DNA from: Actinomycetes bacterium
GTDB lineage: Bacteria > Actinomycetota > Thermoleophilia > RBG-16-64-13
Length of the DNA stretch: 64,000 nt
Reading direction: 5' to 3'
Assembly (NCBI GenBank): GCA_024637035.1
Contig: JAGXFW010000022.1
Span: 62,001 to 126,000 of the forward strand
The translations under genes and the position numbers were made by a program. Below the pieces are notes generated by a model that was not told the origin of the DNA, did no database searches, and worked only from the letters and a program-made list of their open reading frames with translations. Within the stretch, counting starts at the first letter, position 1; each line of letters opens with the position of its first letter. Positions 1-16,390 of the stretch are shown here, piece after piece.

Positions 1-216
1 GGCCAATGCATGCTTCGAGGGACGGTACGCGATGTGGTCTACCTGGGCATGACCACGCAGTACTCGCTGCACATCCCCTCGCTCGACCGTGTGTTCAGCG
101 TGCTCGAGCAGAATGTGGAGATCGCGTCGGATCAGACCCTTTGGGTCAGCGGGGAAGAGGCCATTCTTACATGGCATCCTTCCCACAATCGTATGCTTCC
201 GTCTTCGGGGGCGTGA
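1..216 (+). CDS. potA: Polyamine ABC transporter ATP-binding protein, C-terminal fragment
   Basis: Only the last 71 codons lie in the window; the frame is open from base 1. The residues look like the TOBE substrate/regulatory domain that ends PotA-type ATPases (a GTVRDVVYLG start, a mid-domain hydrophobic strand, and an LTWHPSHNRML end). PotA hydrolyses ATP at the inner membrane face to drive spermidine/putrescine import. Binding-protein and two permease genes follow on the same strand, so this is the first gene of a potABCD-type operon. The Walker motifs are outside the window, so the call rests on the TOBE pattern plus context. Confidence 0.8.
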   Translation, partial: GQCMLRGTVRDVVYLGMTTQYSLHIPSLDRVFSVLEQNVEIASDQTLWVSGEEAILTWHPSHNRMLPSSGA

Positions 217-241
217 GAAGCGAGAGGATAGGAGGACTGGG

Positions 242-1387
242 ATGAAGAAGTTGGACAAGGAACTACGGGTCATGTTGGTGGACGGCCTCGGCGGGCCGAT
301 GTCGCGCCGTGGCTTCATCAAGCGCGCCGGAGCGGCGGGGCTTCTGTTGGGCGCCTCGGGGTTCATAGCGGCGTGTGGCGACAAGACCACGACGACCGCC
401 GCCGGCGGGGGCACGCAGGAAATGTCGAAGGAACTGTTCTTCTACAATTGGTCTGACTACATCGATGAGGATACGCTGCCCAACTTCGAGACTGAGTTCG
501 GCACCAAGGTCGTCTACGACAACTACTCGAGCAACGACACGCTCTTGGCCAAGTTGCAGAGTGGCGCCACCGGCTACGACATCATCGTGCCCACCGACTA
601 CATGATCACCACGATGCTGGGTCTGGATCTCATCCAGGAGATCGACCTGGACAACATCCCCAACGTAGCCAACCTGTACCCGCGATTCCGCGAGGCGCCG
701 TTCGATCCGGGCAACAAGTACTCGATCCCCTGGCAGTGGGGCACCACCGGAATCGGCTACAACTCGGCGAAGGTGCCGGATTTCAAGCCCAGTTGGGAGA
801 TGCTCTGGGACGAGAACTACTCCGGCAAGATCACGATGATGAACGAGATCCGCGACGTATTCGCCGTGGCTCTCTTCCGGCTGGGCTACAGCCCGAACAC
901 CCGCGACACCGCTCAGATCGAGGAAGCCAAGCAGATGCTCATCGAGCAGAAGCCGCTCCTCAAGCACTACACGTCGGACACGTATATCGACGAGCTCGCT
1001 TCGGAGGACTCCTGGCTCTCTCACGGCTGGTCGGGAGACGTGTTCCAGGCCCAACTCGAGAACGAAGCTGTCATGTACGCCGTGCCCGAGGAAGGGTCGC
1101 TCACCTGGGTGGACAGCATGTGCATCCCCAAGGACGCCCCGAACAAGTACACTGCCGAGGTGTTCATGAACTACATCTGCGACCCCGAAGTGGCGGCCGC
1201 CATCTCGAACTACGTGTACTACGCGAGCCCGAATGAGAAGGCCGAGGAGTTCATCCTTCCCGAGATCCTGGACGATCCCCAGATCTACCCGCCTCAGGAA
1301 GTCATGGACAAGCTCATGTTCCTCGAGGAGCTCGGTGCGGACACGGAACTGTACAACACGGCCTACCAGGAGCTGAGGGCGAGTTGA
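242..1387 (+). CDS. potD: Polyamine ABC transporter substrate-binding lipoprotein (PotD-like)
   Basis: A 381-residue extracytoplasmic solute-binding protein for spermidine/putrescine-type ligands. The N-terminus has a twin-arginine motif (SRRGFIKRAG) followed by a hydrophobic stretch and the lipobox IAAC, so it is probably exported folded by Tat and then lipid-anchored. The mature part starts with the family pattern LFFYNWSDYID and continues with a bilobal fold including WQWGTTGIGYN. The ATG at 242 is chosen because GGAGG lies six bases upstream and it places the signal at the N-terminus; the frame is open further upstream without a plausible start. It overlaps potB by 4 nt. Exact ligand among polyamines is not provable here. 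Confidence 0.9.
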   Translation: MKKLDKELRVMLVDGLGGPMSRRGFIKRAGAAGLLLGASGFIAACGDKTTTTAAGGGTQEMSKELFFYNWSDYIDEDTLPNFETEFGTKVVYDNYSSNDTLLAKLQSGATGYDIIVPTDYMITTMLGLDLIQEIDLDNIPNVANLYPRFREAPFDPGNKYSIPWQWGTTGIGYNSAKVPDFKPSWEMLWDENYSGKITMMNEIRDVFAVALFRLGYSPNTRDTAQIEEAKQMLIEQKPLLKHYTSDTYIDELASEDSWLSHGWSGDVFQAQLENEAVMYAVPEEGSLTWVDSMCIPKDAPNKYTAEVFMNYICDPEVAAAISNYVYYASPNEKAEEFILPEILDDPQIYPPQEVMDKLMFLEELGADTELYNTAYQELRAS

Positions 1388-2325
1388 CCAAGCCGGCCGA
1401 TACCGGGATGACCGAGGCCTCGGCCCCGGTCATCCTCGGGCAGAACTCCGGCCCTCTGAGCCGTGCTATCAGCCGGCTCAGAGGTCACTCGTTCGCCGTC
1501 GCGAACCTCCTCATGGCCCCCACCATGCTGTGGTTGCTGCTGTTCCTCGCCCTGCCCCTCGGGGTGATCCTCGTGTACAGCTTCGGGAGTCGCGGTACCT
1601 ACGGCGACGTGATCTACGGCTTCGCCTTCGACAACTACCTGCGGGCCTTCAGCCCGATCTGGCTACCGGTGATCTTGCGTTCCTTCCTCTTCGCGGGCAT
1701 TGCGACCGCCCTCACCCTGGCCATGGGATACCCGTTGGCGTACTTCATCGCCATCTACGGCGGTCGCAGAAAGAGCATCTACCTGATCTTGGTGATGGTG
1801 CCCTTCTGGACCAGCTACCTCATCAGAACGTATTCGTGGATCGTGATCCTGCGCTCCCAAGGGGTGGTCAACACGATCCTGCAGTGGGCGAACATCATCG
1901 ACAATCCGCTTGACCTGCTGAACACGCCCTTCTCGGTGATCCTTGGCCTGACCTACGGATTCCTGCCCTTCATGACGCTACCTCTGTACGCGAGTCTCGA
2001 GAAGCTGGACAAGAGCCTCATCGAGGCCGCCTGGGATCTGGGTGCGTCGCGGATATGGGCACTGCTCACGGTGACGATCCCCCTCTCGATACCGGGCATC
2101 ATCGCCGGCACGCTCCTCGTGTTCATCCCGGCCGTGGGCGATTTCGTCACCCCCGACCTGCTCGGTGGGCCCGACACGCTGATGATCGGCAACGTGATCC
2201 AGCAGCAGTTCTTGTCGGCCCGTGACTGGGCCTACGGTTCCGCTCTCTCCTTCAGTCTCATGGCGATCCTATTGATCGGCATCTTCCTCTATGTGAGGAA
2301 AGTCGGCACGGAGAACCTGGCATGA
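1384..2325 (+). CDS. potB: Polyamine ABC transporter permease (PotB-like)
   Basis: A 313-residue inner-membrane permease with about six transmembrane segments. The cytoplasmic EAA loop that contacts the ATPase is visible as EAAWDLGASRIWALLTV near residue 215. The start is a TTG overlapping the potD stop (TTGA, 4 nt), which points to translational coupling; an ATG at 1408 is an alternative. The first 40 residues are polar and variable, as is common in this family. It would pair with the PotC-like protein encoded immediately downstream to form the translocation pore. Confidence 0.9.
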   Translation: MTKPADTGMTEASAPVILGQNSGPLSRAISRLRGHSFAVANLLMAPTMLWLLLFLALPLGVILVYSFGSRGTYGDVIYGFAFDNYLRAFSPIWLPVILRSFLFAGIATALTLAMGYPLAYFIAIYGGRRKSIYLILVMVPFWTSYLIRTYSWIVILRSQGVVNTILQWANIIDNPLDLLNTPFSVILGLTYGFLPFMTLPLYASLEKLDKSLIEAAWDLGASRIWALLTVTIPLSIPGIIAGTLLVFIPAVGDFVTPDLLGGPDTLMIGNVIQQQFLSARDWAYGSALSFSLMAILLIGIFLYVRKVGTENLA

Positions 2326-3158
2326 GTGTCTTCGGCCGAAAGCCACGCGACCAGCGGGTGAAGGCGAAGGGTCTCCGCGCGTACGTCGCACTCGTCTACG
2401 TGTTCCTCTTCGCTCCGATCTTCGTGTTGGTGTTGTTCTCGTTCAACGACTCGAAGCGGAATGCCACCTGGCAGGGGTTCACTCTCAAGTGGTACGGAGA
2501 GCTCTTCCACGACCAACCGGTGCTCGACGCTCTGTGGCTCACCATGAAGGTGGCTCTCACCTCCACCCTCATCGCCGCGGTGTTCGGTTCGCTGGCCGCC
2601 TACGCGCTCACCCGCTACAAGTTCAGAGGCTCGAGCGTGTACAACGGCTCGATCTACGTGCCGCTGGTGATCCCTGAGATCGTGTTCGCCGTGGCGTTGC
2701 TGAGCGGCTTCAATGTCGCTGGGATAGGCCTCAGCATGAAGACGGTCATCATCTCGCACGTGGCCTTCATGTTGTCGTTCGTGATCGTGGTGGTGAAGGC
2801 GCGCATGGCGGGGTTCGACACACGGCTTGAGGAAGCGGCCATGGATCTGGGTGCGAACGAGCTGCAGACGTTCTACTACGTCACGTTGCCGTTCATGTTC
2901 CCAGGCATACTTGCCGGCGCGCTTCTTGCCTTCATACTCTCGTTCGACGACTTCGTGATCACGTTCTTCAACTCCGGCGTGGGCAACACCACCCTGCCGC
3001 TCAAGGTGTACTCGATGGTCAAGTTCGGAGTCACCCCGGAGATCAATGCCATCTCGGTGTTCATGTTGTTGATCTCGCTGGTCTTGCTTCTGGCTTCCTA
3101 CAAGCTCCAGGGCGGCGCCCCCAGTGTGGTTACCGTCAAGGAGCCGGCCAAGGAGTAG
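2322..3158 (+). CDS. potC: Polyamine ABC transporter permease (PotC-like)
   Basis: A 278-residue second permease of the transporter, overlapping potB by ATGA. About six transmembrane segments are visible, and the EAA loop reads EEAAMDLGANELQTFYYV near residue 170. The residues after the last membrane segment are short and polar. It is the last gene of the potABDC run: a GC-rich inverted repeat follows 18 bases after the stop. PotC-type permeases form the heterodimeric channel with PotB. Product identification is secure at family level; putrescine versus spermidine preference is not visible. Confidence 0.9.
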   Translation: MSVFGRKPRDQRVKAKGLRAYVALVYVFLFAPIFVLVLFSFNDSKRNATWQGFTLKWYGELFHDQPVLDALWLTMKVALTSTLIAAVFGSLAAYALTRYKFRGSSVYNGSIYVPLVIPEIVFAVALLSGFNVAGIGLSMKTVIISHVAFMLSFVIVVVKARMAGFDTRLEEAAMDLGANELQTFYYVTLPFMFPGILAGALLAFILSFDDFVITFFNSGVGNTTLPLKVYSMVKFGVTPEINAISVFMLLISLVLLLASYKLQGGAPSVVTVKEPAKE

Positions 3159-5056: not shown

Positions 5057-5998
5057 TCAGGGGTGGCGTCCCGCGTCAGGATGCTTGGTCGGGGGCAGCC
5101 CGCTCGTCCGCAGGATCTCGCCGTACGTGTCGGGCCGCCGGTCTCGATAGAACTGCAGTAGATTCCGGGCGAAGTCGATTCCGTCCAGGTCGAGGGTCGC
5201 GCTCACGATGCCTTCCTCCCCGGCGGCCTCAGCGAGGATCTCGCCAAGCGGTCCACCGATGAAGCTACCGCCGTAGAAGGTCATATGGTCTTCGACGCCA
5301 ACCCGGTTGAGCGCGGCGACAAACAGCCCGTTCGCGATGCCGTGGCTGCGGATGACCGTCTTCCACGCCTCGTGGGTAGAGAGTTCAGGATGGTCGGGCT
5401 CCGACCCGATGGCCGAGGGGTAGAAGATGATCTCCGCTCCCTTCAGTCCAAGGATCCGGGAGGCTTCTGGGAACCACTCGTCCCAGCAGATCGCGATGCC
5501 GATGACGCCGAAGCGGGTGTGGAAGACGGGCCAGCCTAGGTCGCCTGGGGCGAAGTAGTACTTCTCGAGGTACTGCGGCGCGTCTGGTATGTGGTTCTTG
5601 CGGAAGGTACCCAAGTCGGTGCCGTCGGCGTCGAACACCACGGCCGAGTTGAAGAGGACCCCGGCCATGGCCCGCTCGTACACAGGCACGACGAGCACGA
5701 TCCCCAGTTCGCGAGCCAGGGCCTGCATCCGCAGAGTGGTAGGGCTCGGTAGATACTCGGCGAGATCATACCCGGCGGCGTCGACCTTCTGCGGGAAGTA
5801 TCGAGCCGCGAACAACTCCTGCAGGCAGACGATCTGGGAGCCATTCGCAGCGGCGGCTCGAACGTGCACCTCGGTCCGCCTGACGTTCTCGTCACGGTCG
5901 GAGCCACAGGCGGATTGCACCAGCGACACGCGGACCGCTCGTGTGCTCGCGGGTTCCCGGGGGCCGCTCTCTCTTTCACCGGGCGTCACATGCTCCAT
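5057..5998 (-). CDS. aguB: N-carbamoylputrescine amidase (carbon-nitrogen hydrolase)
   Basis: A 313-residue nitrilase-superfamily amidase. The catalytic triad is visible: Glu61 in CLQELF, Lys134 in FRKNHIPD, and Cys171 in CWDEWFPE. The CWD(E/Q)WFPE form, the KNHIPD lysine motif and a later YPSAIGSEP match N-carbamoylputrescine amidases rather than beta-ureidopropionases. The reaction is N-carbamoylputrescine to putrescine, CO2 and ammonia, in the cytosol. GGGAGA precedes the ATG. It overlaps the upstream amidohydrolase by 13 nt and is last in a four-gene minus-strand operon. The residues before about 20 are an extra polar extension. No agmatine deiminase is in view, so an N-carbamoyl amino acid substrate is the main alternative. 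Confidence 0.82.
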   Translation of the reverse strand: MEHVTPGERESGPREPASTRAVRVSLVQSACGSDRDENVRRTEVHVRAAAANGSQIVCLQELFAARYFPQKVDAAGYDLAEYLPSPTTLRMQALARELGIVLVVPVYERAMAGVLFNSAVVFDADGTDLGTFRKNHIPDAPQYLEKYYFAPGDLGWPVFHTRFGVIGIAICWDEWFPEASRILGLKGAEIIFYPSAIGSEPDHPELSTHEAWKTVIRSHGIANGLFVAALNRVGVEDHMTFYGGSFIGGPLGEILAEAAGEEGIVSATLDLDGIDFARNLLQFYRDRRPDTYGEILRTSGLPPTKHPDAGRHP

Positions 5999-7404
5999 GG
6001 GCGGTTCTCCCTTCGTATCGGTCGCCCGGGTCGTGCGGAAGGCCGGAATCCCCCCTCACTCACGACCGGCACACCGTTGACTATCACGTGATGTACTCCC
6101 AGTGGGGGCGCGTCAGGCACGCCCGAGCCGGGATATCCGGCTCGATCCTCGATGCGCGCGGGATCGAAGATCACCAGGTCCGCGTCGGCCCCGACCCGGA
6201 GGGCTCCCTTGTCACGCAGACCCAGGACCCGCGCCGGCATGATCGTGCAGCGGCGGATGCCCTCGATCAGCGGGAGCCGGCCTTGCTCTCGCACTACCGT
6301 GCGGAAGAAGCGTGGGAAGGTGCCCGCATCCTGGGGATGTCCGGTGCCGGGGGTGGGTGCGCCAACGGCGCCGTCGGTGCTCACCATCATGTAGGGTCGA
6401 TCGAACGCCTCGAACACTTCCGCTTCCTTGCCCACGGCCGCTACGCACACGGCTTCGGGGTCATCGTGCCGAAGACGGTTGAAGAGCGCCTCGTCGAGGC
6501 TGTGGCCGGCGAGTTCTCCCGTGGCGATGGAGAGACTGTCGTAGCCTACACCCCATTTCTCAATACAGCCGTCATCGAACACGGCGGAACCGAGGAAGGT
6601 GGCGAACGCGTGGTACAGGCCGCTGTCGGCGTGTATGTCTACGCCGCGCGCGATGGCGTCATCGAGCACCGACAGGGATTCCGTCATCATGCCCATGCCG
6701 GTCATGTAGGTGAGGTGCGAGACGAGCACCCGGGCACCGGTGGTTTCCGCAAGGCGCACGAGTTCCTGGATGGCTCCCACTCCGCGCCACCCGTCGTGGC
6801 GGGCGTGGACAGGCACCAGCTTGTCGTAACGGGCGGCTACTTCAGCCAAGGCGGTGAGTTCTTCCCACGAAGTGCCCGGAGCGTACTCGAGCCCGAAGCT
6901 GATGCCCAGCGCGCCCTGTTCGAGCCCGCGCTCAGCCAGCCGGACCATCTCGCGCACCTGTTCGGTGGTGGCCGGTGCGTAGTTGTCTGTGACTCCCACC
7001 AGGCGTCGGAGGGTGAAGGAGTGCCCCACGAACATGCCGTGGTTCAGCGGGAAGCCGCTCGTGTCGATCCGACCGAAGAACTCGTCGAGGTCGTGGTCCA
7101 TGAGCCCACAGTTGCCGCCGATGGTGGTGGTGATGCCCTGCAGGGCCATGGTCTGGGCCGAATACTCGTAGCCGTCGACGTGGGCGTGAATGTCGATGAA
7201 GCCGGGACAGACCACGGATCCCATCGCCTCGATCGTGGTGGTCGCTTCGAGGGGCTCGCGCGTGATCGCAGAGATGCGTCCATCACGGACGCCAACATTG
7301 CCCACTGTGCGGAGCGAGCGCTCTGGGTCGATGAGGACGCCGCCGGCGATGCAGAGGTCGAGAGGGCCGTCCGTGCTCTCGGCTGCGCGCAGTGCGTGGT
7401 CCAT
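5986..7404 (-). CDS. Amidohydrolase, N-acyl-D-amino-acid deacylase-like
   Basis: A 472-residue metal-dependent amidohydrolase. The HxH metal motif is in DIHAHVDG, preceded by the typical CPGFID, and later histidines occur in HARHDGW and in VSHLTYMTGMG; the C-terminus has the GALRVGADADLVIFD cap strand of this superfamily. Overall it resembles D-aminoacylases/N-acyl-D-glutamate deacylases. The start at 7404 is preferred because GGGAG lies a few bases upstream; ATG at 7431 is possible. It lies between a sodium:solute symporter and a carbamoyl-type amidase, consistent with import and hydrolysis of an acylated or carbamoylated amine or amino acid. Substrate is not determinable from sequence. Confidence 0.8.
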   Translation of the reverse strand: MDHALRAAESTDGPLDLCIAGGVLIDPERSLRTVGNVGVRDGRISAITREPLEATTTIEAMGSVVCPGFIDIHAHVDGYEYSAQTMALQGITTTIGGNCGLMDHDLDEFFGRIDTSGFPLNHGMFVGHSFTLRRLVGVTDNYAPATTEQVREMVRLAERGLEQGALGISFGLEYAPGTSWEELTALAEVAARYDKLVPVHARHDGWRGVGAIQELVRLAETTGARVLVSHLTYMTGMGMMTESLSVLDDAIARGVDIHADSGLYHAFATFLGSAVFDDGCIEKWGVGYDSLSIATGELAGHSLDEALFNRLRHDDPEAVCVAAVGKEAEVFEAFDRPYMMVSTDGAVGAPTPGTGHPQDAGTFPRFFRTVVREQGRLPLIEGIRRCTIMPARVLGLRDKGALRVGADADLVIFDPARIEDRAGYPGSGVPDAPPLGVHHVIVNGVPVVSEGGFRPSARPGRPIRRENRPWSM

Positions 7405-7495
7405 GGGGCTCCCGTTGTCTTCGTGTGTCATTGGATCGTGGGGTGGAGCCGGGCGCTCGCGCCCGGCTCCACGTGTCGCATGACTACACGTGCCG

Positions 7496-9049
7496 CTACT
7501 CAGCCAGGCTGGGCGCCGGGTTGGCGAGCGCACGGTCGCGCAAGGTACCGGCGTCTTCGTACGTCTCCACCTCTTCGAACAGCGCATCCACGTGGGGCTG
7601 CTTGCCGAAAGCGTAGGAGAGGATCACGAACACGATGAGGTTGGCGGCGAAGCCGTACATGCCGGCGGGCCATCCGCCCAGGTAGCCGGGCAGCCCGGCG
7701 ATGAAGTCGGGGGTGTAGCTCATCCAGATAGATACGGTGAAGCCCACCACGATTCCGGCCCACACCGAGATGCGGTTCGCCCGCTTCCAGAACGCCCCGA
7801 TGATGATGGCCGGGAAGAGACTGGTGAGCAGCTCGTAGGTCTTGATGGCGATGGTGATCAGCAAGGGCAGGTCCCCCATGGCGAGGAACATGGCGATCAG
7901 CGACCACACGATGATCGACCACCGGCTGATGCTCAGCAGCGACTTCGCCGAGTACGCGCGGTTGCGCACCTTCTCGACTATGTTCCTGCCGATCACGACT
8001 CCGAGCGCGGTGAGCTGGGAGTCCACCGACGACATCTCGGCCGCCACGATCACGATGGCCGCGAAGGCCAGGAGCAACGGTCCGCCTGCGTCGCTGAAAA
8101 ACACAAGGAAGGCCGACTCGGCGCCCGCGGTCTCGGTGATGCCACCTTTGTAGTAGATGCCGCCCATGGCGAGGGCGAAGAGCAGGAAGCTCACCACCGT
8201 GGCGATGATGGGGGCGCCTCGGGCAACCAGTTTGAGTTCGCGCACGCTCTCGGCGATGAAGATGCGGTTGAAGATCTCCAGCCAGCAATATGCGCCGATG
8301 GCGCTGGCCAGGATGATGCCCGCCCAGTAGGTCGAGCCGTCGACCACGAGGAGCTCCGGCGCGACCTTCTCCACCTCGCGGAAGATCTCGCCGAACCCAC
8401 CGAAGAGCTTCTGCGCCACGAAGATCACGCCCACCAGCACGATGACGACAGAGATGACGCCCTGCACGAAGTCGGTGATCACCACGGATTTCATGCCGCC
8501 GCTCACCACGTACCAGAGCACGAAGGCCCCGATGAGCAGGATGCCGATACTGATGGTGAAGGGGCCCACGGTCCAGACGGGCAGGGAGTTGTACGTGACC
8601 TCGTTGAAGGCGTATCCGAAGGTCTTGAAGGCGATCACCTGCCACGGGGCTCCGATCAGCAGTGCCGCGAGTGCGAACACCACACCCAACCACTTATCGC
8701 CATAGCGGAGTTCGATGTAGTCGGGCATGTTGAAGAGGTTGTGCACCTTCCCCCAGATCCAGATGCGGGGCGCGATGTAGTAGTAGATCACGAGGCCGGC
8801 CAGCGTGTAGATGGTGGCGTACTGGGCCAGCGTGCCGTAGAGGACCCCGTAGCTGAAGAAGGCCGTGTAGATGGCGCCCACGAACCAGGTGGCCAGTACG
8901 GTGAACATGATCATGTACCACTTGAATTGCCGGCCGGCGACGGCGAAGTCTTCCATGCTGTCGCTCTTCAGCGCGGCCCATTTCCGTACGACCACGAAGA
9001 CGATGGCGAAGTAGATAAGGGTGATGATGAGAGGCCACCAGGATGTCAT
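7496..9049 (-). CDS. Sodium:solute symporter (SSS family)
   Basis: A 517-residue membrane transporter with about 13 hydrophobic helices. The N-terminal pattern DFAVAGRQFKWYMIMFT followed by a glycine- and aromatic-rich helix is typical of the SSS fold, as is the later AAEMSSVDSQLTALGVVIGR. It would import an organic solute with sodium. The ATG at 9049 overlaps the stop of the small DUF3311-type gene by ATGA, matching the common DUF3311-symporter pair. Downstream amidohydrolase and amidase genes suggest that the imported solute is a nitrogenous compound. Confidence 0.88.
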   Translation of the reverse strand: MTSWWPLIITLIYFAIVFVVVRKWAALKSDSMEDFAVAGRQFKWYMIMFTVLATWFVGAIYTAFFSYGVLYGTLAQYATIYTLAGLVIYYYIAPRIWIWGKVHNLFNMPDYIELRYGDKWLGVVFALAALLIGAPWQVIAFKTFGYAFNEVTYNSLPVWTVGPFTISIGILLIGAFVLWYVVSGGMKSVVITDFVQGVISVVIVLVGVIFVAQKLFGGFGEIFREVEKVAPELLVVDGSTYWAGIILASAIGAYCWLEIFNRIFIAESVRELKLVARGAPIIATVVSFLLFALAMGGIYYKGGITETAGAESAFLVFFSDAGGPLLLAFAAIVIVAAEMSSVDSQLTALGVVIGRNIVEKVRNRAYSAKSLLSISRWSIIVWSLIAMFLAMGDLPLLITIAIKTYELLTSLFPAIIIGAFWKRANRISVWAGIVVGFTVSIWMSYTPDFIAGLPGYLGGWPAGMYGFAANLIVFVILSYAFGKQPHVDALFEEVETYEDAGTLRDRALANPAPSLAE

Positions 9050-9285
9050 TGCAGTTCCCCCCTCATCCGCTCGATCTCGAACAGGAGAACGAGGCCCAGG
9101 CACACCAGGAACGAGATGGCGGCGATCATGAACACCACGAAGGGCATGCCGATCACCCACGGTTCGGCGCGATTGATGACTTCGAACAGGGGCGGCACCA
9201 CCAGCCACGCGAACATGAAGACGAAGTACGCAAGGAACGCTCGTCGGATCGTGGTCTTCTTCAGACTCTTCAACCAGGGTTTCAC
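9046..9285 (-). CDS. Small DUF3311-type membrane protein, symporter partner
   Basis: A 79-residue protein with two hydrophobic helices (FLAYFVFMFAWLVVPPLF and a second one of about 20 residues). Small two-helix proteins of the DUF3311 kind are frequently encoded directly before SSS symporters, which is the arrangement here with a 4-nt overlap. The GTG at 9285 is chosen because a strong AGGAGGAGGAG precedes it; an upstream in-frame ATG at 9336 would add a basic, non-conserved extension. The role may be assembly or regulation of the symporter; this is inference from context. Confidence 0.72.
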   Translation of the reverse strand: MKPWLKSLKKTTIRRAFLAYFVFMFAWLVVPPLFEVINRAEPWVIGMPFVVFMIAAISFLVCLGLVLLFEIERMRGELQ

Positions 9286-9383: not shown

Positions 9384-9461
9384 CAACGCGTCCTCTGCTA
9401 ACCTATCAAGCGGAAGGCATGATGCGCAATCCTGTTGAATACTCCCATCGAAGGAGGTTGC

Positions 9462-10130
9462 GTGAGCGGGAGTTCCGACGATCATATCGATATGCCCGCG
9501 GCCCCTCCGCCGCCCTTGCCGCTACCAGCCGACGTACCGCTCACTGCCATGCCGTCCGTGGCTCGCGCCCTCGTGGAAGCGGCGCGCAGGCTGCTTGTGG
9601 CCGGTGGTTTCAGGGCCCTCACTCTGGAGGCGATCGCTCTGGAGGCGGGGGAGAACAAGGCCATGGTGCGCTACTATTTCGGTGATAAGGACGGGCTTCT
9701 CGCCGCCCTGGTGGATTCGTTGATCAGGGATAACCAGGTGGCCGCGAACGCCGAGATGCGCGCTCTCCAACCGGGCCCGAAACGTATCCACGCGTGGGCC
9801 GACGGCCTGCGGCGCGTTGCCGCCGACACCGAGTCGTTCTACGCGTTGTTCAGCCTCGTGCCGCATATCATTGGATCGAAGAGGCTCCGACCTCGCATCG
9901 CCGATCTCTACGAATGGTACCGGGGGCTCAACATCGAGGCGTGCCTTCCGGGTGCAGAAGCCCAAGACCGGCACGCCGCGGGCCTGGGAGCCCTTCTTAC
10001 CGCCGTGGTCGACGGCATCGCGCTTCAGTCGCTGCTCGACCCCGATCGTTTCGACCCGGACGCCGCGTTCCTCGCGCTTGGCGATATGGTCGAGGCGTAC
10101 GTCGAGAAACGACGAGAGGCCTCGAGCTAG
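9462..10130 (+). CDS. TetR-family transcriptional regulator
   Basis: A 222-residue protein with a proline-rich N-terminal stretch (residues about 12-30) and then a TetR helix-turn-helix: ARRLLVAGGFRALTLEAIA followed by the recognition helix NKAMVRYYFGDKDGLL. The C-terminal ligand-binding half is all-helical. GTG at 9462 is preferred because AAGGAGG sits four bases upstream; the frame also runs back to a TTG at 9435. It is divergent from the symporter operon with a palindrome in between, so it probably represses that operon and itself until a ligand binds. Confidence 0.87.
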   Translation: MSGSSDDHIDMPAAPPPPLPLPADVPLTAMPSVARALVEAARRLLVAGGFRALTLEAIALEAGENKAMVRYYFGDKDGLLAALVDSLIRDNQVAANAEMRALQPGPKRIHAWADGLRRVAADTESFYALFSLVPHIIGSKRLRPRIADLYEWYRGLNIEACLPGAEAQDRHAAGLGALLTAVVDGIALQSLLDPDRFDPDAAFLALGDMVEAYVEKRREASS

Positions 10131-10188: not shown

Positions 10189-11925
10189 TCAGGCCGCCGG
10201 AGGTACTCCTTCCGGCCATCCCCGCCGCACGAAGTAGGCGTCGAGGAGGTCGTGGAACTCCTTCTCACCGATCGGCGGCTTGTCGTCCATGCCTTCCGTG
10301 AGGAACCGCTTGGGGATCGAGTCGTCCGCGGCGGTGAGTCCCATGGCGAAGTTCAGGCGCCGGACACGCGTGAGCAGGTCGCCGGCCAACAGCTGGATCG
10401 CCGGCACGTCGACGGGCTCGCCGTTCAGTTCCGATGCCAATACGGCTAGGTCATCCCACGTCATGAAGTCGCGGTAGAAGCGGCACATGATCAGGCAGTC
10501 GTAGAGGAACATGCGGTCTTCGAAATCTACGAACACCTCTACGGTGCCCGCGGCGTCTTTGTCTTTGACCATGCCTGCGAGGATCGGCTTGTAGAACGTG
10601 GACCGCATGTGGCAGGCACCGCGGGGGCTGGTGGCGTACGCGAGCGCCATGCCGCGCAGCGACCGCGGGTCGTAGCCGGCGGGCTCCATGCCCTTGACGT
10701 GGATGGCCTCGTCTTCCAGGCCGAAGGCAGCCGCCGCTCCCCGGATGCCGCGGGAGAGGATGTCGCCGAGCTCGGTGTCTTGGGCGGCGATGTGCCCGAG
10801 CAGTTCTGAGATCGCCGCCGCGTCACCGGGCGCGGGCGCGTCGTCACGTATGCCCTTCGAGGTGGCCCGCATAGCAAGCGAGACCAGGTTCCCGGCGCTC
10901 ATGGTGTCCATGCCCAGCCGGTTGCACTCCTCGTGCAGGTAGAGCACGTCCTCGGCGCTCTCGACCATGCAGAGTCCGCCGAACGAGTAGAGCGTCTCGT
11001 ACTCGGGGCCGTGCACCACGCGCCCCTCGTGGGGTCCACGAAGCACGGTGAGCTTGCGGCGGCAGCGGATGGGGCAGGGCGGGCACGTGCCGTTCTCCAC
11101 CTTGGCCCAGGTGGGGAAGTTCTCGGCCTCGAGGCTCGCTCGGTGCGCCGCGTGCCCAGACTCCCAATAGCCGGTGGGGAATGCGCCGGCCTCGTTCAAC
11201 ACCGCCACCATCATCGGCGTGCCGAACGAGCGATACGCGTGGGCGGCGGGGGAGTCGGTGGCGAGCTTGGAGACGGCCTTCTTCACCTCTTGGAAGGCGT
11301 CGCCGGGCTCGGCGCGACGAGGTCCTAGCGAGGTGACGGTGATCGCCTTCAGGTTCTTGCTGCCGAAGACCGCCCCGAGACCGCCGCGACCCAACGCGTG
11401 ATCTCGATCCAGATGCACGGAAGCCAGCACCGAGAGCGTCTCGCCCGTCTGTCCGATCACCATGGTCGACGTGCGCTTGTCCGCCGACTGGCGGAGGGTG
11501 TCTTCCGCTTCGAACACGTCGAGGCCCCAGAGGTCATCAGCGGGGAAGATAGTTGCTCCGCTGTCGTCCACGTGCACGCGCACTGGGTTTGTGGAGGCAC
11601 CGCGCACCACGACCGCATCCCAGCCGGTCTCCTGCAGAGTGCGCGCCATGGTGCCGCCGGAATAGGTCTCGAGGAAGGCACCGGTCATCGGGCTCTTGGT
11701 GAAGGCCCCGAAGCGGTTCGAGCCCGAGAAGCCGTAGGCTGCGACCTTGCTGGGCGTGAACACGATGACGTTGCCGGGGGCCAGCGGGTCGACGGTCGGG
11801 TCGAGGTATCGCTCCAGCAAGTCGACGCCCAGCGCCTTGCCTCCGAAACCGGCGAGTCCCTGCACGTCGAGGTCCTCCGGCGTGGCCACCCCGGAGGAGA
11901 GGTCGACGGTCAGTGTTCGAGTCAT
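10189..11925 (-). CDS. Aldehyde:ferredoxin oxidoreductase, tungsten-pterin type (copy 1)
   Basis: A 578-residue AOR-family enzyme. It shows the 4Fe-4S ligands C-x2-C-x3-C (CPPCPIRC) plus a later Cys (near LYDCLIMC), and the pterin/tungsten-binding run DPRSLRGMALAYATSPRGACH. AORs oxidise aldehydes to carboxylic acids and reduce ferredoxin; they are oxygen-sensitive cytosolic enzymes. The usual DPRG is DPRS here. It overlaps the second AOR gene upstream by ATGA and ends a four-gene minus-strand operon with agmatinase and an aminotransferase, suggesting amino-aldehyde or succinate-semialdehyde substrates. The two AORs differ strongly in sequence, so they are not a recent duplication. Confidence 0.88.
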   Translation of the reverse strand: MTRTLTVDLSSGVATPEDLDVQGLAGFGGKALGVDLLERYLDPTVDPLAPGNVIVFTPSKVAAYGFSGSNRFGAFTKSPMTGAFLETYSGGTMARTLQETGWDAVVVRGASTNPVRVHVDDSGATIFPADDLWGLDVFEAEDTLRQSADKRTSTMVIGQTGETLSVLASVHLDRDHALGRGGLGAVFGSKNLKAITVTSLGPRRAEPGDAFQEVKKAVSKLATDSPAAHAYRSFGTPMMVAVLNEAGAFPTGYWESGHAAHRASLEAENFPTWAKVENGTCPPCPIRCRRKLTVLRGPHEGRVVHGPEYETLYSFGGLCMVESAEDVLYLHEECNRLGMDTMSAGNLVSLAMRATSKGIRDDAPAPGDAAAISELLGHIAAQDTELGDILSRGIRGAAAAFGLEDEAIHVKGMEPAGYDPRSLRGMALAYATSPRGACHMRSTFYKPILAGMVKDKDAAGTVEVFVDFEDRMFLYDCLIMCRFYRDFMTWDDLAVLASELNGEPVDVPAIQLLAGDLLTRVRRLNFAMGLTAADDSIPKRFLTEGMDDKPPIGEKEFHDLLDAYFVRRGWPEGVPPAA

Positions 11926-13715
11926 GCGTAGTCTCCGAGTCTGAGTTCCGCGATCAGTTCAGCGGTGGGCCTGCCCGCTGCATCCCATCCGCGACGCTCG
12001 TAGTAGTCTTTCTTCATGGCCTCGAAGACTTCGGGGGCCAAGGCCTTGCCGGAGTCCTCCAGAGGATTCTGAAGGGCGGCAGGCATGTAGTCGTCGTCGG
12101 CGGTCCAGCCCTGCTTGAGGTTGAAAAGCCTCACGAGGTTCCAGACCCTCCGGCCGAGTGCGCTGTAGTCCTCCTGAGACATGTCGATGCCGACCGCCTT
12201 CAGCATGGTCGAAGCGTCCTCTGCTCCGTAGCCGATGAAGTCGCAGCCCACGAGGCTCCATTCGGCGCAGTTCTCGTCCTGCTCACCGATGATGAACTCT
12301 GCCTTGCCTTCCGGCCCGAAGGGATCGGCATTCTCGTCATCCGACAAGGCATCGTTGGCGATCGGCCACGAGCGCATGTGGCACGCTCCCCGGTCGGAGG
12401 TGGCGTACGCCAGAGCCATGCCTACCGAGCCGCGCGGATCGTATGCGGGGAACTCCAAACCCTTGATCTCGAAGACCGGCACCTTCGAGTCGTCGACGCC
12501 CCAGGCCTTCGCTGCCGCCCGGATGCCGTCGGCGAGCACCGCTCCGATGCCGCGGCGGTAGGCGATATCCTCGGTGAGCTTCGCCTGGCCCTGTGAATCG
12601 CCGAAGCGGATGGGATCGTCGATGTAGCCGTTCGCCGCGGCGTCCATGGCGAAGGCCACAGCTGCACCCACGGAGATGGTGTCGAGGCCGAGGTGGTCGC
12701 ACAACTCCGCGAACTTCACGATGTTGGAGAAATCGCCGTTGCCCGTGTTCGAGGCGCCGAGCCCGATGGTCTCGTACTCGAGCTTGTCGGCTTCGGCCCC
12801 CGGGAACGCGCCCTCGCTCGCCTTCACGTGCGGGCCGCAGTTCACGGGGCAGTTGAAGCAGCCGTCGCGGGAGACCAGGTTCTCCACCACCGGTTCGTGC
12901 CCGATCAAGGCCGTCGCGTCCTCGAAGGAACCCGAGTGCCAGTTGCGGGTGGGGAGCACGTTGACGCCGTTCGTCCAGTCGACGATCGCGGTGGTGCCTG
13001 CGTCGGCGAGCCAGGAGGAAGCGGAGTCGGGTGCCATGATCTTTGCTGACATCGTCTTGCGGATTGCCTTACCACTATCGTCGAGCCGCGGGCCTTTGCC
13101 GCCGGCGACGGCGATGGCCTTGAGGTTCTTCGAACCCATGACGGCACCCGCCCCGCCCCTGCCGTTGAAGCCGGAACGGCCGCTCTTGGTGCTGCCGACG
13201 TTGTTGCCGATGGCCGCCGAGAAGACGGTGTTCTCGCCGGCCGGTCCGATGGCGGCGACGCGGTAGTCCGCGAATGTGGGATCGTCGTCGACCTCGGCGA
13301 TGCCCTTGCCGGCCAGATGTGTGGCGTCTTTGATGGCGGCACCGTCGGGGGTGATCTCAAGATACGAGAGCCTATCGGCCTTGCCTGTGATGATGACGCC
13401 GAGCAGGTCGGCCTTGCGGAGTTCCCACGCGAGGAAGCCCCCGGCGTACGTGTCGAGGAATCCGCCGGTGGCGGGGCTCTTGGTCACCACGGCGTGCCTG
13501 CATGTGCCGGGGAAGAGGCCGGAAACCGGGCCCGTGATGAAGATGAGCATGTTCTCCGGGCCGAGTGGGTCGGTATCGGCGGGAAGTTCGGTCGCCAGGT
13601 AGTGGGCTCCGAGGCCCTTGCCGCCAAGGAACTGCTGGATGAGCGCGGTCGGTACGTCTTCTCGAACCGCCGTGCCGGCCGTAAGGTCTACTCGTAGGAT
13701 CTGATACTGCTCCAT
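11922..13715 (-). CDS. Aldehyde:ferredoxin oxidoreductase, tungsten-pterin type (copy 2)
   Basis: A 597-residue AOR-family enzyme with the N-terminal hallmark ILRVDLTAGT and FLGGKGLGAHYL, Fe-S ligands CFNCPVNC plus a C-terminal Cys (WSLVGC), and the pterin motif DPRGSVGMALAYATSDRGACH. AAGGAGGAAG precedes the ATG. Compared with copy 1 it keeps the canonical DPRG motif. It follows the gabT-type gene by about 50 bases and overlaps copy 1 by 4 nt, so the pair is co-translated. Two AORs in one operon could handle two successive aldehydes (4-aminobutanal and succinate semialdehyde) or form a heteromeric enzyme; both readings are inference. Confidence 0.9.
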   Translation of the reverse strand: MEQYQILRVDLTAGTAVREDVPTALIQQFLGGKGLGAHYLATELPADTDPLGPENMLIFITGPVSGLFPGTCRHAVVTKSPATGGFLDTYAGGFLAWELRKADLLGVIITGKADRLSYLEITPDGAAIKDATHLAGKGIAEVDDDPTFADYRVAAIGPAGENTVFSAAIGNNVGSTKSGRSGFNGRGGAGAVMGSKNLKAIAVAGGKGPRLDDSGKAIRKTMSAKIMAPDSASSWLADAGTTAIVDWTNGVNVLPTRNWHSGSFEDATALIGHEPVVENLVSRDGCFNCPVNCGPHVKASEGAFPGAEADKLEYETIGLGASNTGNGDFSNIVKFAELCDHLGLDTISVGAAVAFAMDAAANGYIDDPIRFGDSQGQAKLTEDIAYRRGIGAVLADGIRAAAKAWGVDDSKVPVFEIKGLEFPAYDPRGSVGMALAYATSDRGACHMRSWPIANDALSDDENADPFGPEGKAEFIIGEQDENCAEWSLVGCDFIGYGAEDASTMLKAVGIDMSQEDYSALGRRVWNLVRLFNLKQGWTADDDYMPAALQNPLEDSGKALAPEVFEAMKKDYYERRGWDAAGRPTAELIAELRLGDYA

Positions 13716-13763
13716 GCTGCTTCCTCCTTGTTCTTCTGTTCGACTTCGAGACGAGGCTCTGAC

Positions 13764-15077
13764 CTAGGCCAATCCGGCCTCAGCAGCCACCTCGCGCAGC
13801 GACGTGGCAATGATATCGAGACCGCGGTCCAGTGTGGCATCGTCGATGACCAGCGGCATGAGAGGCCTGATGACGTTCCCGTAGGTGCCCGCCGATATCA
13901 TCACGAGCCCCTTCTCGATGACCCGGCCTACCAGGGCCTTGGTCAAGTCGGTGGCCGGCGTCTTCGTCGCGCGGTCGGTGACGAGTTCCATGGCGACCAT
14001 CGCTCCGAGGCCGCGGACGTCACCCACCACTTCGAGATCGTCGCTCAACGCGTGGAAGGCTGCCGTGACGCGCTCGCCGATGACTCGGGCGCGCGCGATC
14101 AGACCTTCATCCTCCATGATGTCGAAGACGGCGAGCGAAGCGCGACAGGCGCCGGGGTTGCCGCCGTACGTGCCTCCCAGACCGCCGGCGTGCGGCGCAT
14201 CCATGATCTCGGCGCGCCCGGTCACTGCCGAGAGGGGATAGCCGGCCGCCATCGACTTGGCAGCGGTCAACAGGTCGGGAGCGACGCCCCAGTTCTCGAT
14301 AGCGAAGAACTTGCCGGTTCGGCCGAAGCCTGACTGCACCTCGTCGGCGATGAAGAGGATGCCGTTCTCTTCGCAGATGGACTTGATCTTGGGGAAGTAC
14401 TCGGGCGGCGGGACCACGAAGCCGCCTTCACCCAAGACGGGCTCGGCGATGACCGCGGCGACTTCTTCGCCGCCCACGTAGTTCTTGAAGGCGTCGGAGA
14501 GAAGGTCGGCGCAGGCGACGCCGCAGCCCGGGTATTCGAGGGCGAGAGGGCAACGGTAGCAGTATGCGAAGGGCAGGCGGTACACCTCAGGGGCGAACGG
14601 TCCGAAGCCCTTCTTGTAGGGCATGGTCTTCGAGGTGAGCGACATGCCCATGAGGGTCCGCCCGTGGAAGGCGTCCTCGAAGGCGATCACCGCATCGCGG
14701 CCGGTGGCGTAACGGGCGATCTTCACGGCGTTCTCGACCGCCTCGGCGCCGGAGTTCAGGAGTAGGGTCTTCTTCGCGAAATCACCGGGCGCCGCCGCAT
14801 TCATCTTCCGTGCGACTTCGATGTACGACTCGTACATCACGATATGGAAGCAGGTGTGGGAGAAGAGCGCGGCTTGATCCTGAACCGCCGCCACCACGCT
14901 CGGGTGACAGTGGCCTACTCCCATCACGCCGATGCCGGCGGCGAAGTCGATGTAGTCGTTGCCCTCTACGTCCGTGATCGTCGAGCCCTTCGCGCTCGCC
15001 GCGAACAACTCGGTCACGTTGAAGGGGCCGCGAGGCACGTTGGCGTCGCGGGCCTGCTTGAGCTCCTTGTTGGTCAT
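13764..15077 (-). CDS. gabT: 4-aminobutyrate/diamine aminotransferase (class III, GabT-like)
   Basis: A 437-residue class III PLP aminotransferase. Visible motifs are LLLNSGAEAVENAVK (phosphate pocket), FEDAFHGRTL, the cofactor Asp in FIADEVQSGFGRTGKFF, and the Schiff-base Lys in LTAAKSMAAGYPLSAV. The length and motifs fit GABA aminotransferase; putrescine aminotransferase is a close relative. AGGAGAGAG precedes the ATG. It lies between agmatinase and two AOR genes, so it probably removes an amino group from putrescine or GABA to give an aldehyde that the AORs oxidise. A Cys-rich insertion (YCYRCPLALEYPGCGVAC) near residue 173 is notable and also occurs in some bacterial GabT proteins. Confidence 0.87.
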   Translation of the reverse strand: MTNKELKQARDANVPRGPFNVTELFAASAKGSTITDVEGNDYIDFAAGIGVMGVGHCHPSVVAAVQDQAALFSHTCFHIVMYESYIEVARKMNAAAPGDFAKKTLLLNSGAEAVENAVKIARYATGRDAVIAFEDAFHGRTLMGMSLTSKTMPYKKGFGPFAPEVYRLPFAYCYRCPLALEYPGCGVACADLLSDAFKNYVGGEEVAAVIAEPVLGEGGFVVPPPEYFPKIKSICEENGILFIADEVQSGFGRTGKFFAIENWGVAPDLLTAAKSMAAGYPLSAVTGRAEIMDAPHAGGLGGTYGGNPGACRASLAVFDIMEDEGLIARARVIGERVTAAFHALSDDLEVVGDVRGLGAMVAMELVTDRATKTPATDLTKALVGRVIEKGLVMISAGTYGNVIRPLMPLVIDDATLDRGLDIIATSLREVAAEAGLA

Positions 15078-15165
15078 CGTGCTCTCTCCTGTCTTCCGAG
15101 TGGCCTCTCGTGTTCTGGGTATCTCTTGTCTTCCGGGTGTCTCTTGTCGTGCCCGTTCGTCGGGT

Positions 15166-16146
15166 TCATCGCCCTCTCGTCCCCTGGCTCCACGCGGCGT
15201 CCATCGTGTCGAGGAGCAGTCGTGCAGCGAGGGTCGAAGTGAGTTGTGCGTGGTCGTACTGCGGGCTCACCTCCACGAGGTCTATGCCCTGCACGCGGCC
15301 GTGCGCGGCCACTGCGCGGATCAGTTCGCGCCCCTCGACGTAGCTCAGGCCCCCGGGTTCCGGAGTGCCCGTGCCGGGCGCCGCCGAGGGGTCGAAGACG
15401 TCGATATCGATCGAGAGATAGAGGGGAGCGCCGGCCGGGATGGTCTCCAGCACGGCGGCGATACCCTCGTCTCGGAATCGCGAGCATGTGATCACGTTCA
15501 CGCCGAGTGAGCGCGCCTCCTCCCAGTCGGCCAAGCCGCTGTTCAGCCCGCGGATCCCAACCTGGGTCACGCCCGTCACCAACTCCCCCTCCACTGCGAG
15601 GCGGATCGGAGTGCCGTGGGCGTGACGGGGCAGGTAGGAGTCGAAGTCCATGTGGGTGTCGAGATGCACCAGATATGGTTTCGGCACGGGTCCACCGGCG
15701 AATGCCTGCAGTATCGAGGCCGTGACCGAATGATCGCCCCCCAAGCACACCGGCGTCGCGCCGGCCTCCAAGATCGCACGCACTGCGCCGGTCATCGCCG
15801 CGCGCGCCGAGTCGCTGTCGCTCGGATCGATCGGCACGTCACCGAAATCGGCTACCCGCGCGCCCACGAGGATCGCACGGCCGAGTTCGACGTCGAAGAG
15901 TTCGACCCCGCCCTCATACGAGTAGAGCGTGGAGGCGTCGCGGATCGCCCGCGGCCCGAAACGAGCGCCCGGACGGTTCGAGGTGCCTTCGTCGTAGGGG
16001 ATGCCGAGGATCGCGAAGTCGAGTTCTGACAGCGAAGCCAGTGTGGTCACCGGGAGTTTGAGGAAGGTGGCGATGCCCACATAGGGCATCGAGCCCGGAT
16101 GGCCGGGAAGTACGGTGGGTCCCCCGTTTGCTGGCGGTTCGCTCAT
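15166..16146 (-). CDS. speB: Agmatinase / ureohydrolase-family enzyme
   Basis: A 326-residue arginase/agmatinase-fold enzyme. The binuclear manganese ligands are visible as GGDHS, DTHMDFD and SIDIDVFDP. The DTH form in place of the usual DAH occurs in some agmatinase and guanidinobutyrase relatives, so the guanidino substrate is not certain. The reaction would be agmatine + water to putrescine + urea. GGGGGAAG precedes the ATG. It is the first gene of the minus-strand operon with the aminotransferase and two AORs, separated from gabT by 88 bases of pyrimidine-rich, imperfectly repetitive DNA. The promoter should lie in the gap beyond 16146. Confidence 0.86.
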   Translation of the reverse strand: MSEPPANGGPTVLPGHPGSMPYVGIATFLKLPVTTLASLSELDFAILGIPYDEGTSNRPGARFGPRAIRDASTLYSYEGGVELFDVELGRAILVGARVADFGDVPIDPSDSDSARAAMTGAVRAILEAGATPVCLGGDHSVTASILQAFAGGPVPKPYLVHLDTHMDFDSYLPRHAHGTPIRLAVEGELVTGVTQVGIRGLNSGLADWEEARSLGVNVITCSRFRDEGIAAVLETIPAGAPLYLSIDIDVFDPSAAPGTGTPEPGGLSYVEGRELIRAVAAHGRVQGIDLVEVSPQYDHAQLTSTLAARLLLDTMDAAWSQGTRGR

Positions 16147-16166: not shown

Positions 16167-16334
16167 AGGCTGTTGAAGATCGAAGCCTTGGCCGCCAGAA
16201 CGCACTGGACGGCGCGATGCGGCGTCCTCGGTCGCGCACGTAGCGCTGCTACGTGCGCTCCCCGCTCCCTCTCGTCCTTGCCTCACGCGTGCCCATCGCG
16301 CCCTGGCGGCGAAGCGTCCATTCTTCAACAGCCT
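16167..16334. repeat. 168-bp palindromic element (MITE- or REP-like)
   Basis: The ends are perfect 13-bp inverted repeats (AGGCTGTTGAAGA at 16167 and its complement at 16322). Inside, further arms pair in nested order (GGCGCGATG with CATCGCGCC; a perfect 11-bp stem 16234-16244/16248-16258 at the centre), so the whole element could fold into one long cruciform or RNA hairpin. No transposase is encoded. It lies directly upstream of speB, so it might also affect that promoter. The surrounding gene-free stretch 16147-16497 holds this element and the tandem repeat beside it, nothing else recognisable. Confidence 0.75.
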
Positions 16335-16350
16335 GCTCGAGTGGCATACG

Positions 16351-16390
16351 TCTCCAGCTGTGCACGGAGGTCTCCAGCTGTGCACGGAGA
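16351..16390. repeat. 20-bp tandem duplication
   Basis: TCTCCAGCTGTGCACGGAG(G/A) occurs twice in direct tandem. Each copy is nearly self-complementary at its ends (TCTCC/GGAGA) and contains CAGCTG and GTGCAC. Confidence 0.8.

Follow-up and report, generated by a model that had tools for sequence, protein, structure and literature searches.

By analogy, the nearest precedent for one of the enzymes considered here (AOR1) is formaldehyde:ferredoxin oxidoreductase (FOR) of Pyrococcus furiosus. This member of the AOR/WOR family has glutarate bound in its crystal, and its proposed substrate is glutaric semialdehyde, a dicarboxylic semialdehyde, with ferredoxin as acceptor (PMC12096430). AorABC of Aromatoleum aromaticum and P. 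furiosus AOR resemble both aldehyde oxidoreductases of the locus (AOR1 and AOR2) in having two domains, the catalytic Thr, Glu, Tyr and His, and the cluster cysteines. In the GabT-GabD shunt, GABA is converted via succinate semialdehyde into succinate, the same chain as proposed here, and putrescine is degraded by transamination (SpuC/PatA) together with aminobutyraldehyde dehydrogenase.

The locus differed from each of these systems. AOR1 is nearer in sequence to AOR sensu stricto than to FOR (264-272 bits with the structures 1aor and 9mqx vs. 187.9 bits with 1b25, the FOR structure), sits in a GABA operon and belongs to a bacterium with cytochrome oxidase genes. The genomic context of AOR1 and AOR2 is unlike that of AorABC and P. 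furiosus AOR: the neighbouring genes are gabT, a ureohydrolase gene, a TetR gene and an SSF transporter gene, and the operon has no gene for AorA (Fe-S) or AorC (FAD), so that use of NAD is not expected. As compared to the GABA shunt, GabT is a normal member and an AOR-family gene occupies the usual place of gabD. The likeness to the SpuC/PatA pathway consists of a polyamine-type transporter and the ureohydrolase nearby, whereas the cluster contains neither a putrescine aminotransferase nor an aminobutyraldehyde dehydrogenase. A literature search, in which subscription journals were thinly covered, found no published pathway in which GABA or putrescine is degraded with the help of an AOR; the first-pass annotation knew of no described pathway with this gene set. 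Established knowledge covers the AOR family, GabT and the GABA shunt.

Gene order and enzyme families of the locus

The window analysed (64,000 nucleotides, positions 62001-126000 of contig C5) comes from a genome of 3.57 Mb that is 100% complete (G000, the host genome). Its features relevant to this work are the following:

89-3158, plus strand: potD-, potB- and potC-like polyamine-type ABC transporter genes (profile matches)
L009 11077-12216, just upstream of the window: potA (TIGR01187, 393 bits, cut-off 355.6)
9435-10130, plus strand: TetR-family regulator, convergent with the operon, candidate regulator (PF00440, PF13977)
10189-11925, minus strand: AOR1, tungsten-type aldehyde oxidoreductase, conserved partner of gabT (AFOR_N/AFOR_C)
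11922-13715, minus strand: AOR2, tungsten-type aldehyde oxidoreductase, optional second subfamily (AFOR_N/AFOR_C)
13764-15077, minus strand: gabT, 4-aminobutyrate:2-oxoglutarate aminotransferase (TIGR00700, PF00202)
15166-16146, minus strand: arginase-family ureohydrolase ("speB"), candidate agmatinase or 4-guanidinobutyrase (PF00491)
16190-16390, no strand: intergenic repeat-like element upstream of the operon and speB, with approximate boundaries (exact 18-nt core in common with L013)

Open reading frame calls and profile matches placed the ureohydrolase gene, gabT, AOR2 and AOR1 in this order on the minus strand (10189-16146), with spacings of 88 nt between speB and gabT and 48 nt between gabT and AOR2, and a 4-nt overlap between AOR2 and AOR1 (bases 11922-11925). 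The four consecutive genes, their coordinates and their families had been read correctly in the first-pass annotation. They are presumably co-transcribed, and no gene for an electron-transfer subunit, ferredoxin included, was found within the operon. The TetR gene was kept at the operon-flanking place only in G070 among the relatives compared. The intergenic element resembles positions 7730-7990 of L013, located between gdh and AOR2 in the operon of a relative, and the common core is CTTCGCCGCCAGGGCGCG.

The gabT product matched Aminotran_3 (PF00202, 418 bits) and exceeded the curated cut-off of the GABA transaminase model (GABAtrnsam TIGR00700, 546.6 bits, cut-off 506.65), its nearest PDB chains were GABA transaminases, and in the alignment it retained Ile50, Arg141, Glu206/211, Lys268 and Arg398, the substrate-binding residues of Escherichia coli GabT. 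A second gabT paralog was present in several relatives (L120:2801-4279, L121, L123, and L157:8783-10735); the next gene encodes a large, conserved protein with no assigned function, which contains DLERKSSAVTLSDMEVFIFPELMYSLVLANIMSPRIWEW. Elsewhere in the host genome (contig C15, L076:7319-11394), a class III aminotransferase gene (39% identity to gabT) lies directly upstream of another AOR, and this pair is flanked by a divergent TetR gene 42% identical to that of the window; pairing of aminotransferases with AORs may be a wider theme.

AOR1 and AOR2 matched PF02730 (AFOR_N) and PF01314 (AFOR_C) across the whole chain and far over the cut-off. Both had the [4Fe-4S] cysteines 288, 291, 295, and 494 (Pf numbering) and, in the alignment, Thr243, Glu313, Tyr427, and His448, the proposed catalytic second-shell set of AORs (2025 review, PMC12096430), and their metal is presumably tungsten. 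The closest PDB entry to AOR2 was 1aor (E 5.6e-93). AOR1 and AOR2 are about 32% identical and fall in separate clades (support 100/100), which ruled them out as recent tandem duplicates. All 19 AOR1-type proteins carried a CRFYRD signature beside the cluster cysteine that was absent from the other aligned AORs of the host genome. In 19/19 the residues at Pf positions 495 and 498, close to the cluster Cys494, were both Arg, and Arg495 occurred in none of the other AORs examined; these two residues could bind a carboxylate. At the position next to Cys494 where AOR1 has Arg, AOR2 proteins had Asp in 6/7, and it is a matter of speculation that this would suit a cationic aldehyde. Fifteen AOR-family genes were counted in the host genome, at least four of which (C33b, C14a, C14b, and C31) lacked His448 in the alignment, and in G052 the AOR1 gene (L155:8789-10534) is broken by one in-frame TGA, which may reflect a sequencing error, a pseudogene or recoding.

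Linkage of gabT and AOR1 among relatives

The comparison covered the 13 family genomes with AOR1, belonging to nine genera; the close relatives are metagenome genomes of Thermoleophilia or of otherwise unclassified Actinomycetota/Actinobacteria. Linkage of gabT and AOR1 on one strand was found in all of them (13/13). In eight (G080, G086, G097, G052, G058, G028, G010, and G046) AOR1 followed gabT directly with a gap of 10-57 nt, in three (G004, G016, and G076) the order was gabT-gdh-AOR2-AOR1, and in the host genome and G070 it was speB-gabT-AOR2-AOR1; a fragmentary relative (L012) displayed gabT-gdh-AOR2. The gdh gene inserted between gabT and AOR2 in G004, G016, G076, and L012 is a glutamate dehydrogenase homolog (PF00208/PF02812) whose best NCBIfam model was GdhA_Arch, at 513 bits against a cut-off of 750. 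The conserved core is therefore gabT-AOR1, adjacent or split only by gdh and/or AOR2, and AOR2 is optional and outside this core. The first-pass annotation had proposed looking for the same operon in other anaerobes: the gabT-AOR1 part of it occurs in nine genera of the family and the four-gene form with speB is confined to the host genome and G070.

An estimate based on 15 AORs, 10 class III aminotransferases and about 3,400 genes in the host genome gave fewer than 0.1 adjacent AOR/aminotransferase pairs expected by chance, which, together with the link in 13/13 AOR1-bearing genomes, argues that the operon is more than a chance association. Part of the linkage may reflect shared ancestry, since the locus stays beside ilvD-ilvB and ilvD-gabT-AOR1 forms a conserved block in the family; nevertheless, gabT-AOR1 remains a tight cluster on the same strand while other genes come and go. 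In G040, gabT was at the same place without AOR1. In family f3 (L137, L139-L143, L146, and L148) the CRFYRD-bearing AOR1-type gene lay directly downstream of alanine dehydrogenase and not of gabT, and outside the class an AOR1-type protein appeared in one of 396 genomes of the phylum (G649, 41%), at a contig start and with no gabT seen.

The order gabT-AOR1-sucC-sucD-pucR in G080, with sucD over the model cut-off, points to succinate as the product of AOR1, and sucCD likewise lay downstream in G076. An ADP-forming acyl-CoA ligase gene and a butyryl-CoA:acetate-type CoA-transferase gene were conserved a few kb from gabT-AOR1 (L151:13631-17736), with equivalents in G028, G046, G052, G058, G097, and G040.

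Candidate GABA pathway and competing dehydrogenases

On the grounds of sequence and gene context we lean, with modest confidence, towards an operon for GABA catabolism in which the aldehyde step would be performed by an AOR-family enzyme, with AOR1 acting as a succinate-semialdehyde oxidoreductase. GABA, supplied by uptake, from 4-guanidinobutyrate via the ureohydrolase, or from putrescine, would be transaminated by GabT to succinate semialdehyde and glutamate. AOR1 would then convert succinate semialdehyde into succinate, passing two low-potential electrons to ferredoxin, the acceptor suggested by the AOR family, or to another acceptor. Succinate would enter the TCA cycle, in some relatives via the succinyl-CoA ligase encoded next to AOR1, and glutamate would be recycled by glutamate dehydrogenase, whose gene is in the same operon of relatives. 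AOR2, of the second subfamily, would have a substrate of its own, perhaps 4-aminobutanal or some other aldehyde formed from an amine. Since AOR1 is kept beside gabT in nine genera, these relatives probably oxidise succinate semialdehyde by AOR1 and not by the usual NAD-dependent dehydrogenase.

The first-pass annotation had proposed that AORs replace NAD-dependent dehydrogenases, and had named as evidence against this the occurrence of normal dehydrogenases elsewhere in the genome. Family searches, on which all absences given here rest, divided the genomes in this respect. The host genome encodes, unlinked to the operon, both a GabD1-type succinate-semialdehyde dehydrogenase (SSADH; contig C26, NF006915, 816 bits, cut-off 730) and an aldehyde dehydrogenase (ALDH) of the aminobutyraldehyde dehydrogenase subfamily (contig C16, NF010000, 683.5 bits, cut-off 615). 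GabD1-type SSADH was also present in G070, G004, and G016, and the aminobutyraldehyde dehydrogenase subfamily in these three and G076. In contrast, a GabD1 ortholog was not found in 9 of the 13 genomes (G010, G028, G046, G052, G058, G076, G080, G086, and G097), some of them incomplete (78% for G080, 76% for G097, and 87% for G052), and among the remaining ALDHs of G010, G028, and G076 the representatives scored passed no SSADH cut-off. The proposed replacement is thus supported by the conserved gabT-AOR1 synteny and by these nine relatives, and the counter-evidence named at first applies in part, the host genome having both the SSADH and the aminobutyraldehyde-type ALDH. In G010, G058, G052, G046, and G040, a gene for a CoA-acylating ALDH (MMSDH-type), which could take semialdehydes, lay about 13-17 kb away from gabT or AOR1.

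The ALDH-type candidates and the 15 AORs of the host genome also fit AORs that are broad-range aldehyde scavengers with no dedicated role, the pathway steps being performed by ALDHs elsewhere, and many AORs are likely to be wide-range detoxification enzymes (PMC12096430). We consider this reading improbable, given the tight conserved linkage to one AOR subfamily over nine genera and the nine genomes in which GabD1 was not found. Highly improbable in our judgement is a route from succinate semialdehyde to 4-hydroxybutyrate and 4-hydroxybutyryl-CoA, as in clostridial GABA fermentation, with another role for the AOR. The CoA-transferase and the ADP-forming acyl-CoA ligase near gabT-AOR1 in G010, G028, G046, G052, G058, and G097 would agree with it, the best model for the ligase being 4-hydroxybutyrate-CoA ligase, below its cut-off (models were run on the G010 copies); however, searches of G000, G070, G004, G016, G058, and G086 for PF03241, the family of HpaB and 4-hydroxybutyryl-CoA dehydratase, found no member. 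For the host genome this route was rejected, as it looks closed without PF03241.

Ureohydrolase, AOR2 and polyamine context

The arginase-family assignment of the first gene was clear (PF00491, 256 bits), whereas the agmatinase identity implied by the name speB was uncertain: the agmatinase model TIGR01230 was passed (184.6 bits, cut-off 174.3) and PRK02190 was not (214 bits, cut-off 302). Scores were nearly equal for agmatinase (1wog), proclavaminate amidinohydrolase (1gq6), guanidinobutyrase (3nio), and guanidinopropionase (3nip) structures. Its presence inside the gabT operon was confined to the genus of the window (G000 and G070), making it a lineage-specific addition. A tentative possibility, which we hold to be somewhat doubtful, is that the enzyme is a 4-guanidinobutyrase feeding a chain from 4-guanidinobutyrate to GABA, succinate semialdehyde and succinate without putrescine, a variant compatible with AOR1 acting on succinate semialdehyde. 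In this case the next enzyme of the operon, GabT, requires the GABA that would be formed, and 3nio is near the best PDB match; nevertheless, 1wog was slightly ahead, TIGR01230 was over its cut-off, AOR2 would be left unexplained, and no source of guanidinobutyrate was identified.

For AOR2 itself, a context of the polyamine type was seen in three relatives. In G080, an operon potA-potD-potB-potC-AOR2-class III aminotransferase was found, with gabT-AOR1 on another contig; it is preceded by a distant relative of carboxynorspermidine synthase (155.6 bits vs. 800) and an Lrp-like regulator, and a speB relative of 63% identity stands divergent to it. The class III aminotransferase recurs in G004 and G016, where it and potBCD were within about 10 kb of AOR2. 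This aminotransferase belongs to a HemL-like group and its ortholog in the host genome is on another contig (C33). Context therefore sets the two AORs apart, linking AOR1 to GABA and AOR2 to transport of the polyamine type; the substrate of AOR2 may be an amine-derived aldehyde, possibly 4-aminobutanal.

The presence of potABCD and aguB nearby had been taken in the first-pass annotation as a sign of polyamine catabolism. The transporter genes hold as homologs, with potA just outside the window, and the substrate of PotD is uncertain because its score (229 bits) was far below the cut-off of 582. The name aguB (5057-5998) was not upheld: TIGR03381 gave 306.6 bits against a cut-off of 410.25 and agmatine deiminase (PF04371) was not found by family search in the 100%-complete host genome, on which grounds a route through agmatine deiminase and AguB was rejected. 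The minus-strand cluster at 5057-9208, convergent with a PucR gene, comprises a nitrilase-family amidase, an amidohydrolase and a sodium-solute symporter and looks like a unit for degradation of amides or N-acyl compounds rather than AguB.

These data bear on a complete AOR-linked route, in which agmatine would give putrescine (speB), by transamination 4-aminobutanal and, by AOR2, GABA, followed by GabT and by AOR1 acting on succinate semialdehyde, so that both aldehyde steps of polyamine and GABA degradation would be performed by dedicated tungsten oxidoreductases yielding reduced ferredoxin in a family that encodes cytochrome oxidases. We consider this unlikely. Two AORs of different subfamilies do share one operon, the pot-AOR2 context in G080, G004, and G016 agrees with it, and the Asp beside Cys494 of AOR2 would, speculatively, fit a cationic aldehyde. 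However, the operon contains no putrescine aminotransferase, the one linked to AOR2 being HemL-like, the ureohydrolase is an agmatinase or guanidinobutyrase candidate alike and belongs to this operon in no genus but that of the window, five genomes (G000, G070, G004, G016, and G076) have an ALDH of the aminobutyraldehyde dehydrogenase subfamily, and neither PotD nor aguB lends support. The putrescine part of the first suggestion is thus weaker than the replacement of the NAD-linked dehydrogenase, and it is the surroundings of AOR2 that keep a polyamine role in play.

The anaerobic setting assumed at first is doubtful. The host genome has two genes of the COX1 family and each of the eight genomes tested at least one; with such haem-copper oxidases present, these bacteria cannot simply be taken for strict anaerobes, and one aerobic producer of AOR is already known (PMC12096430). 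For many AORs no physiological substrate has been assigned, and their described role is the broad scavenging of aldehydes; an AOR subfamily tied to gabT across nine genera would supply a precise substrate for one of them. The proposed role of AOR1 would add a version of the GABA shunt that does not use NAD, and would bring tungsten-type aldehyde oxidation into the nitrogen metabolism of bacteria that encode cytochrome oxidases.
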